Source: a virus. From it: a DNA stretch of 28,770 nucleotides. The notes beneath the pieces are model-generated. The model saw only the letters and a program-made list of their open reading frames with translations. It had not been told where the DNA came from and ran no database searches. Both the position numbers and the translations under genes were made by a program. The stretch lies in the IMG/VR virus record IMGVR_UViG_3300021356_000123, positions 1 to 28,770 of that record. One strand, given 5' to 3'. Shown here piece by piece: positions 13,256-21,025 of the stretch (within the stretch, counting starts at the first letter, position 1; the number at the start of each line of letters is the position of its first letter).

Positions 13256-16200
13256 TTATGTTAAAATATTGTGAGCAACAACTTTAACGTCATACTCGCC
13301 AGCAGCGTTAGTAACATCTGTAATATTTATAGCAAAATTAGTGCCATCAATATCAGCAGAAACATCTGCAAGAATTACATCAGTGTACATCTTATTAATT
13401 TCTGTATAATAAACGTCAGTTTCTCTTGAGTTAATCAAGTAACTAATTTCGGTATACTGCCTTCTTCTTTCTGCTGTAGTAATTGTATTTCCATATCCTG
13501 TAGATGTCAAGTTATAGTAATTTAATGTTGTTGGAGCATCTGGAGCAATTGTAATTTGAATTGATCTTTCTGTAGTTGCAGCATCAAAACCACCAACGTA
13601 TCCTGTTCTATCAACTTCTGCACCATCTAATCTATATACAACATTAGTTGTGTACTCTGTAGGTCCTTCTGCTGTTTCAGCAAATACAAGTGGATTTCCT
13701 ACATTTGAAGGATCAATTTGATTGAACTTAAATGTTCTTCCAACTAAAATATTTGTAAGTGCAGGAGATGCCGAACCATTGAGTGCATATTCATTACTTC
13801 CAAGAACAGTTACTACATATTCATAAGTTGTAATTGAATCTTCGAGTTCAATTTGAACTTTTCCAGATTTAGCAGCAGTTACTGGATGTGTTGTTACATT
13901 TAATGCATTTCCTCCAGTAACTGTAAACGTACCTGTATTTGTTACTACTCCATAATCTACTAATTCTAACTTCTTAAGGTCAGAGTTGATAACCTCAACA
14001 TAATTTGGTGTTGTTCCAGAGAAATTTGTATTTACAGAGAAACCACCAGATTCGCTAATTTTTAGTAATTCTTTAGAAGAATTGATAGCAAAAATAATTG
14101 AATCCGAAGTTGATTCAATAAATGCACTAGTAGAATCTCCTCTAAAAATTAAAGAACCTGAATTTACATCAAGTTTATCTACAGTGAAGAAATAATTATT
14201 AAGTACAGCAGTTAAATCATTGTAAATATTTCTTACATATGTAAGTTGTGCTGTTCCATTTGCAACAGTACCAGTTGTATGAGTTGGTGCTACTGTTCCA
14301 AGTGTACCACTAGTAGTAACTGCATATACATTTTCACCAAAATATATCAAGTTTGGTGTTGGAGCAACTGGTGTAAGTGTATGAGCACTACCAGTGTGTG
14401 ATGGAGAACTTACTAAATCAATATAAGTATTGGCAGTTAAATCTGCTTCTGATGCTGACAATTTAATCGTATTAACATCAACTACATACACATAATAATT
14501 TGTAGCATCTACTAAAGGACTTACTGGAGTTTCTCCAACTCCAGGACTGTAAGTTACAACACTACCAGTAACTAAATTATGATTTGTTAGTGTAATGGTA
14601 TCATCAGTATAATTAACTGCTGATGATGGAGCAAAAGTAGATACTTCTGATGTTGATTTTTGTTCAGTGCTTGCAACCCAAAGATTTACATCTGAAAGGT
14701 TTGTACTCTTAAAGTTTTGTACTCCATTTAAAGTAAAATCAGTTTGATCTAACTTTAAAGTATTAACATTTGCATTATAGAAGAAGAACGTATCTTCATC
14801 CTCTCCAGGTGCAGATTCTGTTAGAATAAATGTATCAAAGTCAACGTCTCTAGTTCCACCAAGAGATACAAATGAAGTTCCGTCAAATCCTTCAAATAAA
14901 GTTTCTTCTGTATTAAATCTAATTAATCCCGTTGCACCTACAGGTCTTTCTGCAGTAGTTCCAAATGGAAGTTGGAAAGCATCAGTGCCACTAACTTGGA
15001 CAAAACTTCCAGATTGTGCGGTAAGAACTAAATTATTAGTGTCTAAACGTGTGATAGCTTCTGGAGTAATCTGAATTTTGCTATCTAAATTAATACCATC
15101 AATAAGATTTGTAATACTCTTGGTGTTAATTTGACCTAAATCATCATCAACACTAACAGTATCTTCTGAAGAAATATTATCAATGGTAAAACTAAATCCA
15201 GATCCACTGTTACCAACTAATAGGTTACTAACAGTTAACACATCACTTACTGCATATCCTTCACCTGAAGAGTTAATAGTAACTGCTTGAATTCCTGCAA
15301 GTGATGTAATAGTTGCTTGGAACTGTGTAGATGGAGTATTTGTTACAACAAGATCACCATTAGAGTTGATATACTGCATAGCAGAATTATCTGCAGTAAC
15401 CACATCTCCAATAGAATAACCTGAACCATTAGATAAAATTACAATATCAGTTACTACAAGAGAAGGATCAACAGTAATTCTTGCAGTTGCACCATTACCA
15501 CCAAGTCCATCTGATACTGCATTAACCTCAATACCTGCTCCCGTTCCAAGTGCAGTAGTAGCAACAGTTTCTTGGAAACCACTACCTACTGCAACACCAG
15601 AAACTGTTAATTCAGCACCAGTTGCTTGGTGTAATGTAATGCTAATTTGTAATCCCGATCCACCTCCAATATCGCCAGAAGCAGCACTTAATACATCACT
15701 TGCTTGATATCCAGATCCAGCATTTACTAGGGTTATATTTGATACAACTCCACCAACTGTAACAATGTCTGCTGTTGCGTTAGATCCATTTCCTCCAGTC
15801 AGAGAGACACCTGAATAACTACCATCAGCATATCCAGATCCAGGATCTGCAACAGTTACTGTGTAGACAATACCAGCACCTTCAGCACCACCTAAATCAA
15901 TAACACTAGCAGTAAGTGTATCACCATTAGTGTATGCAAGACCACCATTAGCAATACTAGCACTAGTAACTACATTACCAGAAACCGTGATATTAGCAGT
16001 AGCGCCAGCACCAGTTCCTCCATTTAACGTTACTCCATTGTATGTACCATTTGCATAATATTGACCTTGATTGCTAACAGTCAATCCAGTGATTACATCA
16101 TCTGTAATATCACTTCCTGCAACAGATAAGGTGTCACTTGCAGAATATCCTTTACCAGGATCATTAATTGTTGCTGCAGTTACTGCCCCCAATTCAACGG

Positions 16201-19200
16201 TAATATCTAAGGTTGCTCCTGTTCCACTTCCGTTTGTTGTTGTCGCAACATTAGTGTAAGAACCATTGGTATATCCACTTCCACCAGTAATTGTTCCACT
16301 AAGAGATGCAATAACTGCACCACCCATATCAGATCCACTTGCAGATAAGCTATCACTTACTTGATAACCTGATCCTGCTGCAGTAATTACAACATCAGTA
16401 ATAATATTGTCTGAAACTGTAATAGTTCCTTGAGCGTTTGTTCCATTCCCACTACTCAATGGAACATTAGTAAAGGTTCCATTAGGATAATCTTGTCCAC
16501 CACTAAGAATAGAAGTTGTTTGAACTGCCCCAGCAGGAGCACTAGAGACATTCGTCAGTGGTACATTATCATATACTGCTTCATCATAATCTGCACCTGC
16601 AGTAGTAATAGATGGTACAAATGCGACTACAAAATCAACAGAAAGACCAACACCTGATCCTCCAGTTAATGCAATGTCGGAATATGTACCTACGCCGTAA
16701 TTAGATCCATTTACTACAGTAAATTGATCAACATTATTTGTTGTAAACTTAAGTCCTCTGAAAAATTGCAGTTCCTCTGCTTTTAAATCTGCAATAGTTC
16801 CACTAGTGCTAGTAATACTAATAGTTCCAGGTGTAGTGGAGAAGAATCCAGTTGTTAAACTATTAGCAAACGCCATTGATGGCGCTGATGTTTCCCCATT
16901 AGCAAATTTAACAACACCATTAAAGTTAGAATCACCAAGAACATTAAATTTATTGTCAGGATTTAATGCAAGCTCAGTAACTCCATCAAGTCCAGGTTCA
17001 TCACCAATTGTAACTCCAGTTCCTGCAGAAGTTGATAAGACAACATTCTCATGGAATTTTGCAGAAGCATCTACCTCAAATTCATATTCTGGTTCTGCTA
17101 CTTTAATACCAACTCTATCTTCTTGAGCGTCTACTACTAAAAGATTAGTGTCAAATGCAACATCATTTGCAAATGTAGATACTTCATCAGGTTCGCCAGT
17201 TACTGTTAATGTTCCTCCTACAATAGCATTATCTGCTAATGTGATAGAAGTTGCACTAATAGAAGAACCAAGTAAGGATAAAGTACCAGATAGTGTAGTA
17301 GTTCCAGTTACATTTAAACTACCAACGGTAGTATTTGATGCAACATTCATTGTTTGGAATGATGTTGATCCATCAACTCCGATACTAATGGTATTGTTTA
17401 ATGCAGTAGTTCCAACTGTAATTGATTCTCCAGTTCCAGGAGTTCCACTAATTGTTGCACTACCACCCATTCCCGAGTGCTGAGTACAGAAATAGTAAAC
17501 CGTTGCTGGACCAGAAGTTGGTACAAGTAAAATTCTTGTGTCATCTTCTTGAATAGCACCAATAAAATCTACATTAGCATCTCCACCACCCCAAGTTCCG
17601 TCTGCCGTTGTTGAAAAACTAATAGGATGATCATCATACTCAGTTCCATCTTCTTCATAAACAAATTTGTAAAGAGTGTCTCTTTCTAATTGTAATGTTG
17701 GTTTTTCTACATATCCATTACCATCACCCAAATCAAACCAAAAAGCATTTCCTGTGGTAGTTGCTGGTCTTACTGCAATGCTGTAAGTAACTTCCCTACC
17801 AATACCTACAAGATTACCATCTGCTCCAATTGCAGGATTTGCAATGGAAATAGAATCACCAATATTATAATCTGTTCCCCCATTTGCAACAGTAGCAGAA
17901 CTGATGTACTGAACATCATCTAAAGTAAATGCTGCTGCAGATCCAGAACCACCCATGGTGGAGTTATCTAAACCAACTGTCTCCCCAGCAACATATCCAT
18001 CACCATTAAATTGACCTTCAGGAGCAGATACACTAGAAACTGTGTAAGGATCTTGTGCTAATGTATAACTAAAGTTAGATCCACCAGACGCTACAACTTG
18101 ATCTGTAATTGGATCGGTATAAGTAAGATCGCTATTGTTAACAGTAAGAACATCAGTATTAGCATAATTTGATCCATGACTTACAAATCCAGTAATTGCT
18201 AAGGATCCACCCGTAGCAATCATATTTACAATAGCACCAGTTCCACTACCACCTTGTAAAGGAACATCACCATAAGTATAATTTTCATATCCACTACCAC
18301 CAGCAGTGGTTCCATTTTCTAAACCTTGAACTACAACATCTGCAGTGCCATTAGTTCCTGATCCACCAGTAATAGCAACGTTTGAGTAATTTCCAACAAT
18401 ATATCCAGAACCTGCATTTGTAACAGTAGCATCAAATGCATTAACAGTTACGTTAAGAGTTAACCCTGAACCATTACCAGTTGTAGTTGTAGGAACTGAA
18501 GTGAATGTACCAACGTGCCATCCGTTACCACCATCATTAATACTTAAAGTTTCTACTTGTACCTGCTGAGAAAGAATATCTGCAAATACATTGAAGTTTG
18601 TTGGAGTTGTTTGAACGATGGGAGTACCGTTCGCAATAAAATTAATTTCACCAGAACCTGATCTTTGGAGTCCAGTGTCTTGATCATTGATAAATGCAAG
18701 TCCAGGCAATGGCAGAGTGCCATCTGTAATTCTTAATTGGTTGTTGACATCAACCTTAGATCCAGAAGGAGCACTTAATTCTAAATCTCCAGATAGAGAT
18801 TCTAAGGTGTTGCCTGAAAGTTTTAAGTTACCAAGAGAAATACTTGTTGGGAGGATAGTTGTAGTGTCACCAGTACCAGTAACAACTAACTGGTCAAAGG
18901 TTGTACCACCACTTTGAGATCCACCAACAAATGATACGGTGCCATTCTCTTGATCTACAAAGAATGCATTACCAACACGGAAATCACCGTTTTGGTCCAT
19001 GCTGGTGAAAAGAACTCTACCACCAGTGGACTCAATAATTTCATTTGCTTGACTTACATCAGTAATGTCATTAGAGGAGTCACTTCCAGTTCCAATGTAT
19101 CCAAAATTATGTACAATACAACGTAATCTTGTTCCTTTACCAATTGCAGTGATACCACGCTCACCATAAACAGATGCAGAACCAATAGAACGAAGTTCAG

Positions 19201-21025
19201 CACCGAAATCAGTGTAATCTGCAAGTGCAATATACTGTGCAGTACCGCCTGAAGAAGAACGAATATCTTGTACAGATACACTACCATCTAAAATACTGGT
19301 AGAACCATCAAGACCATTAAGGTGAAGAAGTAATTGAGTGTTTGTATCAGTTACAAACTCAGAAGTTGTTGGAGTAAATGTTCCAGTGTAACGAGCAAGT
19401 CCTTTACTTACTCTAAATTCGTCAATATGACCAGGGAATTCTGCACTTCCATTGAAGTTAGCACCAATGTAAAGTGCTCTTGACGAACCATAATCTGTAG
19501 TATCTGTAAGATTACTACCTTCCTGAGATCCATTAAGATATAATTTAGTGACACCACTTTCTCTAACTACTGCAACGTGGTAAAATACATTTGCACTTAA
19601 AGTAGTGGATCCAGTAATAGTTCCCGCACCATTTGCTGATTGGAATTCTAATACAGAACCACTTAAAACCAATAATCCAGCAACTGTCCCACTAGTAGAT
19701 CTAAAATCTGCAATTACTTTTGTTCCACTAGCAACACTAGAAGGTCTAATAAATGCTTCTACAGTAAAATCACCAGTCCCAAATCCAAAGTCAGAAGATC
19801 CTGCTAATGACAGATAATCTCCAGTACCATCTAAGAGTAAGGATGCAGTACCAAATTTCTTTTCATCAGTATCTAATTGTGCATCACCATTTGCAGTAAC
19901 TGCTTTACCACCACTCTGTGCTTCTGCTTCTACAAATGTTCCAGTGCCTTGACCACTAATGAAAATATAAGTTCCATCATTAGAATCAATAGTGCCAGAT
20001 GCTAAGGCAGTAACACCATCAGTATCATAGTAAGTGATAGTGTCAGCAGCATTGAATGTACCTGTGGTATTATTAAGTTTTAATCTGGTTTTACCTGTAC
20101 CTTTGAAACCAGAACCACCTGGGTTTTCACCTTTAATACTATCGGCAGCAAAATACGTGAATGAGTTTAACCATTCAGAACGTGCGCCATTTTTAAGATA
20201 CAAACCAACTGAATTGGGTACAACAAATGTACACTCATTAAACAGAAGGGTTGCTTCGGCAGAGGATGCTCCCACACTAGATCCATCTACTAAGGCACCT
20301 CTACCAGCGTCTCCAGCAGCGTATCCACGAGGGTCAGCACCCGAAGTAGTACTACCAGTTGTAATTACGCTACAGCGTTGAATATATGGTCTTCTTCCGT
20401 CAGCAGAAACAGTATAATTTGACTTTAATCTAAATCCATATCCAGTATCACCTACAGAATCATAATAAAATCCAGTTAAGCAGAGATCCTCAATATTGCA
20501 ATCACCTTCAATTAAGAAAGCATCTTCAGTATTTGTGGCAAGAGATGGTTGAATAAAAGTAGATTTTAAACCATCACCTTTAATTACAACACCCACAGGA
20601 ACAGTCAGTGGGAAAGTTTCAGTAAAAGTACCAGTCGAAATGATAACAGTGTCACCAGATTGGGCATAATTATCCAATGCATACTTCAAAGAAGCAAATG
20701 CAGTAGTTGGAGTTTTACCCCAAGCATTTGCTCCAGTTGTTGCTCCATGGCGTGGATTTACAGATCCTAGAGTTGCTTTATCTACACCATTATCTGAAAC
20801 ATACCAAGTATTTCCAACACCATCAGTAATGGCGCTAGAAAACATTGACGGAACAATTGTCTCGTCGTTTGGATCAGCATTTAATACCTCAGTAATAGTA
20901 CCCGCATTATTGACAAATAGGGTTCTATCGGCAATATTAATCGCAACTTCCTTATCTGTAAGATCAGAAGTCGTCGGTACTGAGTTCTGAGTTAGGGATC
21001 TCTTTAACTTGATTCTGCTTGCCAT
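13256..21025 (-). CDS. Giant modular adhesin with beta-helix, LamG and cupredoxin-like domains, 2589 residues
   Basis: The N-terminus MASRIKLKRS, followed by DKEVAINIADRTLFVNNAG, is the same module type as the start of the 739-residue fibre. Domains in order: beta-helix ~70-350 (TWYVSDNGVDKAT, TAFASLKYALDNYAQSGDTV); LamG-like ~380-575 (DGTGDYLSLAGS, FTVEAFIRPSS, HVAVVRESGVTKLYLNG, HIDEFRVSKGLARYTG); fibre linker; GSGY repeats ~830-1070; cupredoxin-like ~1077-1195; linker with GTTTLSGTLSL and VGIKVAEPEYEFEVD; GSGY repeats ~1440-1945; a RPVGATGLIRFNTEE unit ~2025; 'HGL' and 'PTH' units ~2140-2270; a ligand-less cupredoxin-like domain ~2398-2515; a charged end (AERRRQYTEISYL). No catalytic site is evident; host-surface binding is inferred. 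The start overlaps the 72-residue gene by 62 nt and is fixed by the shared N-terminal module; AGAG lies about 9 nt upstream. Confidence 0.95.
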   Translation of the reverse strand: MASRIKLKRSLTQNSVPTTSDLTDKEVAINIADRTLFVNNAGTITEVLNADPNDETIVPSMFSSAITDGVGNTWYVSDNGVDKATLGSVNPRHGATTGANAWGKTPTTAFASLKYALDNYAQSGDTVIISTGTFTETFPLTVPVGVVIKGDGLKSTFIQPSLATNTEDAFLIEGDCNIEDLCLTGFYYDSVGDTGYGFRLKSNYTVSADGRRPYIQRCSVITTGSTTSGADPRGYAAGDAGRGALVDGSSVGASSAEATLLFNECTFVVPNSVGLYLKNGARSEWLNSFTYFAADSIKGENPGGSGFKGTGKTRLKLNNTTGTFNAADTITYYDTDGVTALASGTIDSNDGTYIFISGQGTGTFVEAEAQSGGKAVTANGDAQLDTDEKKFGTASLLLDGTGDYLSLAGSSDFGFGTGDFTVEAFIRPSSVASGTKVIADFRSTSGTVAGLLVLSGSVLEFQSANGAGTITGSTTLSANVFYHVAVVRESGVTKLYLNGSQEGSNLTDTTDYGSSRALYIGANFNGSAEFPGHIDEFRVSKGLARYTGTFTPTTSEFVTDTNTQLLLHLNGLDGSTSILDGSVSVQDIRSSSGGTAQYIALADYTDFGAELRSIGSASVYGERGITAIGKGTRLRCIVHNFGYIGTGSDSSNDITDVSQANEIIESTGGRVLFTSMDQNGDFRVGNAFFVDQENGTVSFVGGSQSGGTTFDQLVVTGTGDTTTILPTSISLGNLKLSGNTLESLSGDLELSAPSGSKVDVNNQLRITDGTLPLPGLAFINDQDTGLQRSGSGEINFIANGTPIVQTTPTNFNVFADILSQQVQVETLSINDGGNGWHVGTFTSVPTTTTGNGSGLTLNVTVNAFDATVTNAGSGYIVGNYSNVAITGGSGTNGTADVVVQGLENGTTAGGSGYENYTYGDVPLQGGSGTGAIVNMIATGGSLAITGFVSHGSNYANTDVLTVNNSDLTYTDPITDQVVASGGSNFSYTLAQDPYTVSSVSAPEGQFNGDGYVAGETVGLDNSTMGGSGSAAAFTLDDVQYISSATVANGGTDYNIGDSISIANPAIGADGNLVGIGREVTYSIAVRPATTTGNAFWFDLGDGNGYVEKPTLQLERDTLYKFVYEEDGTEYDDHPISFSTTADGTWGGGDANVDFIGAIQEDDTRILLVPTSGPATVYYFCTQHSGMGGSATISGTPGTGESITVGTTALNNTISIGVDGSTSFQTMNVASNTTVGSLNVTGTTTLSGTLSLLGSSISATSITLADNAIVGGTLTVTGEPDEVSTFANDVAFDTNLLVVDAQEDRVGIKVAEPEYEFEVDASAKFHENVVLSTSAGTGVTIGDEPGLDGVTELALNPDNKFNVLGDSNFNGVVKFANGETSAPSMAFANSLTTGFFSTTPGTISITSTSGTIADLKAEELQFFRGLKFTTNNVDQFTVVNGSNYGVGTYSDIALTGGSGVGLSVDFVVAFVPSITTAGADYDEAVYDNVPLTNVSSAPAGAVQTTSILSGGQDYPNGTFTNVPLSSGNGTNAQGTITVSDNIITDVVITAAGSGYQVSDSLSASGSDMGGAVIASLSGTITGGSGYTNGSYTNVATTTNGSGTGATLDITVELGAVTAATINDPGKGYSASDTLSVAGSDITDDVITGLTVSNQGQYYANGTYNGVTLNGGTGAGATANITVSGNVVTSASIANGGLAYTNGDTLTASVIDLGGAEGAGIVYTVTVADPGSGYADGSYSGVSLTGGNGSNATADIVTVGGVVSNITLVNAGSGYQASDVLSAASGDIGGGSGLQISITLHQATGAELTVSGVAVGSGFQETVATTALGTGAGIEVNAVSDGLGGNGATARITVDPSLVVTDIVILSNGSGYSIGDVVTADNSAMQYINSNGDLVVTNTPSTQFQATITSLAGIQAVTINSSGEGYAVSDVLTVSNLLVGNSGSGFSFTIDNISSEDTVSVDDDLGQINTKSITNLIDGINLDSKIQITPEAITRLDTNNLVLTAQSGSFVQVSGTDAFQLPFGTTAERPVGATGLIRFNTEETLFEGFDGTSFVSLGGTRDVDFDTFILTESAPGEDEDTFFFYNANVNTLKLDQTDFTLNGVQNFKSTNLSDVNLWVASTEQKSTSEVSTFAPSSAVNYTDDTITLTNHNLVTGSVVTYSPGVGETPVSPLVDATNYYVYVVDVNTIKLSASEADLTANTYIDLVSSPSHTGSAHTLTPVAPTPNLIYFGENVYAVTTSGTLGTVAPTHTTGTVANGTAQLTYVRNIYNDLTAVLNNYFFTVDKLDVNSGSLIFRGDSTSAFIESTSDSIIFAINSSKELLKISESGGFSVNTNFSGTTPNYVEVINSDLKKLELVDYGVVTNTGTFTVTGGNALNVTTHPVTAAKSGKVQIELEDSITTYEYVVTVLGSNEYALNGSASPALTNILVGRTFKFNQIDPSNVGNPLVFAETAEGPTEYTTNVVYRLDGAEVDRTGYVGGFDAATTERSIQITIAPDAPTTLNYYNLTSTGYGNTITTAERRRQYTEISYLINSRETDVYYTEINKMYTDVILADVSADIDGTNFAINITDVTNAAGEYDVKVVAHNILT
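13324..13331 (-). promoter_or_regulatory. Late promoter TATAAATA inside the 3' end of the 2589-residue gene
   Basis: An exact TATAAATA on the minus strand inside coding sequence (codons for Ala-Ile-Asn-Ile), ending 69 nt before the ATG at 13254. It could drive the 256-residue gene and downstream giant fibre separately from the upstream adhesin. Chance occurrence in AT-rich coding DNA cannot be excluded. Confidence 0.45.
13480..13835 (-). other. Degenerate cupredoxin-like domain lacking metal ligands
   Basis: Residues ~2398-2515 (YVVTVLGSNEYALNG, LVGRTFKFNQIDPS, GNPLVFAETAEG, TTLNYYNLTSTGYGN) follow the order of the cupredoxin-like unit at ~1077-1195. The expected first His is Asn2444 (GNPL), and the expected Cys/His/Met triad becomes Leu2506, Thr and Tyr. 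This would be a structural, metal-free copy. Confidence 0.5.
15185..16710 (-). repeat. GSGY-type repeat array, second block of the 2589-residue adhesin
   Basis: About thirteen alternating units. The A form reads roughly GY-x-NGTY-x-NV-x-LTGGSGTGA followed by an I-T-V strand. The B form reads GY-x-x-SD-x-LS-x-x-x-x-D-x-GG. I count seven A and six B units. The DNA also shows recurring phrases such as plus-strand TATCCAGATCCAG. Confidence 0.8.
17440..17795 (-). other. Cupredoxin-like domain with His-Cys-His-Met ligand set
   Basis: Residues ~1077-1195: PTLQLERDTLYKFVYE, then His1133-Pro (DDHPISFS), a central GGGDANVDF stretch, and YYFCTQHSGMGG giving Cys1180, His1183 and Met1186. Order and fold-edge motifs match type I copper proteins; the His-to-Met spacing (H-x2-M) is shorter than in plastocyanin. 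Copper binding is inferred, not shown. Confidence 0.65.
17815..18540 (-). repeat. GSGY-type repeat array, first block of the 2589-residue adhesin
   Basis: About six units of the same A and B kinds as in the second block (HVGTFTSVPTTTTGNGSG, GYIVGNYSNVAITGGSG, GYENYTYGDVPLQGGSG, then three B-like units with D-x-L or E-x-V cores), ending just before the cupredoxin-like domain. Confidence 0.75.

Follow-up and report, generated by a model that had tools for sequence, protein, structure and literature searches.

A cupredoxin-fold domain with a complete type 1 copper ligand set in a P-HM1-like myovirus baseplate-wedge/tail protein

Carrier protein and ligand set of the domain

A long baseplate-wedge/tail protein encoded in 28,770 nucleotides of DNA from an uncultured marine phage (IMG/VR virus fragment IMGVR_UViG_3300021356_000123; this whole stretch is called the window) contains an internal cupredoxin module, copy 1, with a complete type 1 ligand set that probably holds a copper ion, which may have a stabilizing role. 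The carrier gene (13256..21025, minus strand), assigned by PHROG matches and synteny, encodes 2589 residues, the length given in the initial annotation, and holds two cupredoxin-like copies. Its product matches a PHROG baseplate wedge subunit at E 9e-252. The genes of this region are ordered VrlC-like, GC112, L-shaped fibre assembly, YadA-like, GC509, carrier, GC512-like and GC513 tail fibre. Prochlorococcus phage P-HM1 shows the same order, each of the eight genes having a pairwise match there, and the carrier is syntenic with the P-HM1 gp7 / T4-GC 511 baseplate-wedge protein. Based on this shared gene order, the carrier is read as the baseplate-wedge/tail protein of a P-HM1-like myovirus, and its original label of adhesin is not supported. 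Identity between the two proteins is 44% across residues 1-757. P-HM1 gp7 also bears the domain, there with a C-x2-H-x3-M loop, but its copy is diverged and located at residues ~1379-1483. The carrier additionally has a Laminin_G_3 / concanavalin A-like lectin domain (residues 399-541, window positions 19403-19831, minus strand, Pfam E 5.5e-23), which is a more obvious glycan-binding candidate.

Copy 1 covers residues ~1080-1192 (~17450..17788, minus strand), as delimited by profile search, AlphaFold2 (AF2) and Foldseek. The first ligand, His1133 (17627..17629, minus strand), is followed by Pro1134 in the segment DDHPISF that begins at residue 1131, while the ligand loop C1180-T-Q-H1183-S-G-M1186 (17468..17488, minus strand) is part of YYFCTQHSGMGG, which begins at residue 1177. 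All four ligands are found, in type 1 order, exactly where they had been claimed. C1180 is the sole Cys of copy 1 and one of six in the carrier, and the C-x2-H-x2-M pattern occurs only once among the main proteins of the window, at copy 1. The initial annotation had remarked that the short His-Met spacing is unlike that of plastocyanin. The loop is indeed short, but C-x2-H-x2-M is the amicyanin spacing, so its length falls within the norm of type 1 sites. Similarly, copy 1 had been placed between two GSGY blocks; GSGY does occur on both sides (upstream at residues 872 and 909, downstream first at 1551), but the downstream block is not adjacent, and shaft-like sequence fills the stretch from copy 1 to residue 1551.

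A profile of 37 relatives, from which the window sequence was excluded, matched copy 1 at E 8.5e-16. After the four ligand columns had been blanked, the same profile still matched residues 1080-1192 at E 2.8e-11, and copy 1 is therefore recognized by its whole sequence rather than by a chance motif. A disulfide or zinc-knuckle reading of copy 1 was ruled out by the single Cys in this domain and in its intact representatives.

Predicted fold and comparison with known cupredoxins

With residues 1078-1197 and the 37 relatives as input, AF2 produced a beta-sandwich with a pLDDT of 84.8 and a pTM of 0.79, with a poor stretch at model residues 61-80 (pLDDT 59-68). The model has the Greek-key topology of the cupredoxin superfamily, and the ligand order His...Cys-x(2-4)-His-x(2-4)-Met of type 1 sites is found at the expected strand ends. 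His1133 (model residue 56) stands directly before a strand, Cys1180 (model residue 103) at a strand end, and His1183 and Met1186 in the loop preceding the last strand, as in cupredoxins. A Foldseek search of the PDB returned rusticyanin, three-domain copper nitrite reductase, plastocyanin, pseudoazurin, amicyanin, auracyanin and laccase domains, with a best E of 5.8e-4; among the best 50 matches, nearly all were cupredoxins or multicopper oxidases/nitrite reductases. The TM-scores to known cupredoxins were moderate (0.4-0.57), and the resemblance is therefore one of fold and not a close one. Altogether, the model leaves little doubt that copy 1 has a cupredoxin fold; the cupredoxin-like domain of the initial annotation is borne out by a confident beta-sandwich with cupredoxins at the top of the Foldseek list.

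Sequence comparisons point in the same direction at the level of the family. The single copy 1 sequence gave chance matches only when searched against the PDB. The family profile A4 matched copper nitrite reductases at E 2.8e-5 and plastocyanins at E 0.006, and in these alignments the His, Cys and His fall on their counterparts. Copy 1 had no significant match in Pfam or NCBIfam. Among the individual models, PF00127 (Copper-bind) did not match copy 1 and matched three of 38 relatives (best E 2.3e-4), while the amicyanin model TIGR02657 did not match copy 1 and weakly matched two of seven relatives (best E 0.011, below the cut-off).

Copy 1 thus shares with amicyanin, plastocyanin and pseudoazurin the predicted fold, the ligand order and the single Cys. 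It differs from them by the Pro that replaces Asn/Ser after the first His, by its location within a large virion protein that has no signal peptide, and by the lack of Pfam/NCBIfam matches noted above. The plastocyanin PetE of S-MbCM6 (locus L155; PF00127 E 2e-20) is another cupredoxin that a marine phage encodes. However, PetE is a stand-alone exported photosynthetic protein and not a virion domain, and it can be aligned only weakly with the tail-domain family.

The carrier has a further copy that is absent from the initial annotation; copy 2 was identified by profile, AF2 and Foldseek at residues ~2402-2517 (~13475..13822, minus strand), with all four ligands replaced (N, N, S and Y). Copy 2 matches the ligand-blanked profile at E 2.8e-15, and its AF2 model (pLDDT 89) again resembles rusticyanin and plastocyanin in Foldseek. 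The copies most like it are those that lack the ligands in the T4-GC 399 proteins of cyanophages. Since copy 2 is predicted to fold without ligands, the fold appears to need no metal, which makes the site kept in copy 1 more telling.

Conservation and loss of the ligands

Scanning of the fetched loci with the ligand-blanked profile, followed by clustering at 70% identity, yielded 69 domains. They were classified automatically into 58 with all four ligands, eight with none and three intermediates. Two of the intermediates proved to be alignment artefacts, caused by the C-x2-H-x3-M loop in P-HM1 and by an insertion in S-RSM4. After hand correction, about 60 domains are intact, eight have no ligands and one, from S-MbCM7, is a real partial that has kept the first His alone. 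Exactly one Cys was found in all 59 automatically classed intact representatives, and a disulfide can therefore be excluded. In all copies surveyed, the Cys and the second His are kept or lost jointly and never separated. The ligand positions are the four best conserved in the family alignment, where overall identity decreases to 25-40%. The lost copies mostly retain the core positions G1116, Y1119, F1121, P1173, L1176 and V1152, while the adjoining Tyr1178 and Pro1134 are usually missing together with the ligands. This family-wide conservation and joint loss reinforce the type 1 ligand set originally proposed.

Most relatives were fetched by patterns that partly cover the ligand loop, and the raw counts of intact copies are biased accordingly. 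For this reason, the ligand test was redone on a small set of relatives for which the N-terminal 760 residues of the carrier had served as the sole query. At the homologous position, eight of the 11 distinct copies are intact (L164/L165/L170 counted as one, L166, L167, L168, L172, L179, L180 and L181). The three lost copies (L163, L173 and L182) belong to one lineage with H-to-Y, C-to-S and H-to-Q replacements and a kept Met, and each of these proteins has an intact copy at another place. Elsewhere in this set, L162 has one ligand-free copy only, at a different site, and L175-L178 have an intact copy at a different position. A strict all-four-or-none rule of loss was rejected as too strong, with one lineage keeping the first His only and another the Met only. 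A tree of 108 columns, which resolves little, has about five state changes, two of them forced by well-supported branches. Taken together, these patterns make it very probable that the metal site is under selection. The domains of S-RSM4 (L144, residues ~865-1040) and S-MbCM7 (L149, residues ~566-735) share a ~60-residue internal insertion and form a natural sister pair that differs in ligand state, with the site intact in the former and the Cys/His lost in the latter.

Possible nature and role of the metal site

We propose that the cupredoxin module, inserted in a long baseplate-wedge/tail protein, holds one copper ion in the virion. Copper would be taken up during lysis or afterwards and would tie the sandwich together at its loop ends, stabilizing the exposed end of a decoration module. 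Copper is probably the metal of the copy 1 site, while a structural or stabilizing role of the putative site is a more tentative assignment, close to an even call.

It is unlikely that the site holds a different metal purely as a structural staple, be it zinc or the iron known from T4 gp37. Such a reading is consistent with the ability of Cys/His/His/Met sites to hold zinc. The folding of virion proteins takes place in the cytoplasm, which has little free copper; this counts against copper and would favor zinc. However, the fold, the ligand order and the C-x2-H-x2-M loop are features of type 1 copper proteins, and the weak family matches point to amicyanin, halocyanin and Copper-bind models. 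As for iron, its binding at HxH motifs has been reported in the T4 gp37 tail fibre and proposed for marine phages under the name 'Ferrojan horse' (PMC11705849). In either case a metal site is shown or proposed in an external part of the phage, but the iron is octahedral at HxH, in contrast to the single candidate Cys/His/His/Met site in a globular domain. Within residues 1078-1197, HxH motifs of the T4-like type, which recur in a trimeric fibre tip, were absent.

A metal-free adhesive or assembly module, in which the ligands are inherited relics, appears slightly less likely still. Copies that lack the ligands but are predicted to fold alike do persist, both as copy 2 and in the T4-GC 399 proteins of cyanophages. 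On the other hand, the ligands stand out as the best conserved positions of a diverged family, their losses are mostly joint and not piecemeal, and the site is kept in most of the orthologous copies that were not selected for it (8 of 11). The structural relic suggested for copy 1 in the initial annotation is disfavored because real relic copies exist and look different, copy 2 being an example.

The remotest of the alternatives is a redox-active or copper-handling domain that contacts host surface proteins at adsorption. In its favor, type 1 sites classically transfer electrons and the cellular relatives are on cell-surface lipoproteins, but neither a redox partner nor a heme or multicopper module was seen, and the modules lie among repeats in fibre and baseplate proteins where ligand-free copies are tolerated. 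Electron transfer is less favored because copies in these proteins that lack the ligands still have the fold; the module would probably serve in virion assembly or host-surface contact. The presence of intact and ligand-free copies within one protein provides a natural control for the effect of the metal.

Distribution of the domain family

The family is a module of marine phage gp9, baseplate-wedge and tail-fibre proteins, and of marine bacterial and archaeal surface lipoproteins. Direct searches of viral contigs with copy 1 as query gave no matches, and the relatives were obtained from a cyanophage-relative query and a carrier N-terminus query. Copy 1 does match the PHROG families of gp9 and of baseplate/tail proteins. 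When used as a tblastn query, one relative retrieved 330 phage records, mostly at the C-terminal end of cyanomyovirus gp9; a second retrieved 328 records that include tail fibres and 'hypothetical' proteins, with a few pelagiphages and Methylophilales phages among them. A structural search of viral proteins gave TM ~0.7 to S-RIM14 gp9 and to fibres of P-SSM2 and P-TIM68. The C-terminal domain of gp9 (phrog_677, 'baseplate wedge tail fiber connector'), for instance in S-ShM2, belongs to the same family and has the same ligand set, but there it caps a protein of ~310-410 aa, whereas in the carrier it is internal to 2589 aa.

In the open-access literature we found no description of a cupredoxin or blue-copper domain in phage tails, gp9 or cyanophages, and the family is a real cupredoxin-fold branch, widespread in marine phage tails and apparently undescribed. 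Hundreds of marine phages have the domain, so copper may be present in many virus particles of the ocean. A loaded site would mean a cuproprotein in the tails of many abundant marine phages, of which we found no description in this literature. Ocean copper as a whole is unlikely to be affected, since at 1e7 phages per ml and 100 sites per phage the total would be only ~2 pM by our estimate. Hundreds of proteins whose present annotation is 'hypothetical' or 'baseplate wedge tail fiber connector' can now be given a domain name. The cultured phages S-ShM2 and P-HM1, which have the domain, offer a simple test.

The domain is also encoded in marine bacterial and archaeal genomes, some contigs being phage-like. 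Lipoproteins of SAR86, SAR92, related gammaproteobacteria and marine euryarchaea, with a lipobox recognized by eye, carry it either alone or fused to cadherin-like (by eye), collagen-like or PEBP domains. That loaded type 1 copper sites in marine phage tails take part in host recognition, as a copper counterpart of the proposed iron 'Trojan horse' with a module common to bacterial surface cupredoxin lipoproteins, is quite improbable. The domain is at the end of the SAR86 (L136:5758-6288), SAR92 (L131:5329-6306) and euryarchaeal (L121:5233-6327) lipoproteins, including a SAR86 lipoprotein of 177 aa; these lipoproteins may represent undescribed copper proteins on the surface of marine cells that are abundant. 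A link to Pfam PF25489 (the plant At5g54830-like domain) was dismissed with all matches below the cut-off; the recurrent weak ones at L136 residues ~118-163 hint at a eukaryotic relative. Two Pithovirus/marseillevirus 'beta-sandwich proteins' of 124-169 aa (BFVD A0A481Z6J5 and A0A481YVH3) have TM 0.67-0.70 to the copy 1 model and may be stand-alone versions in giant viruses.
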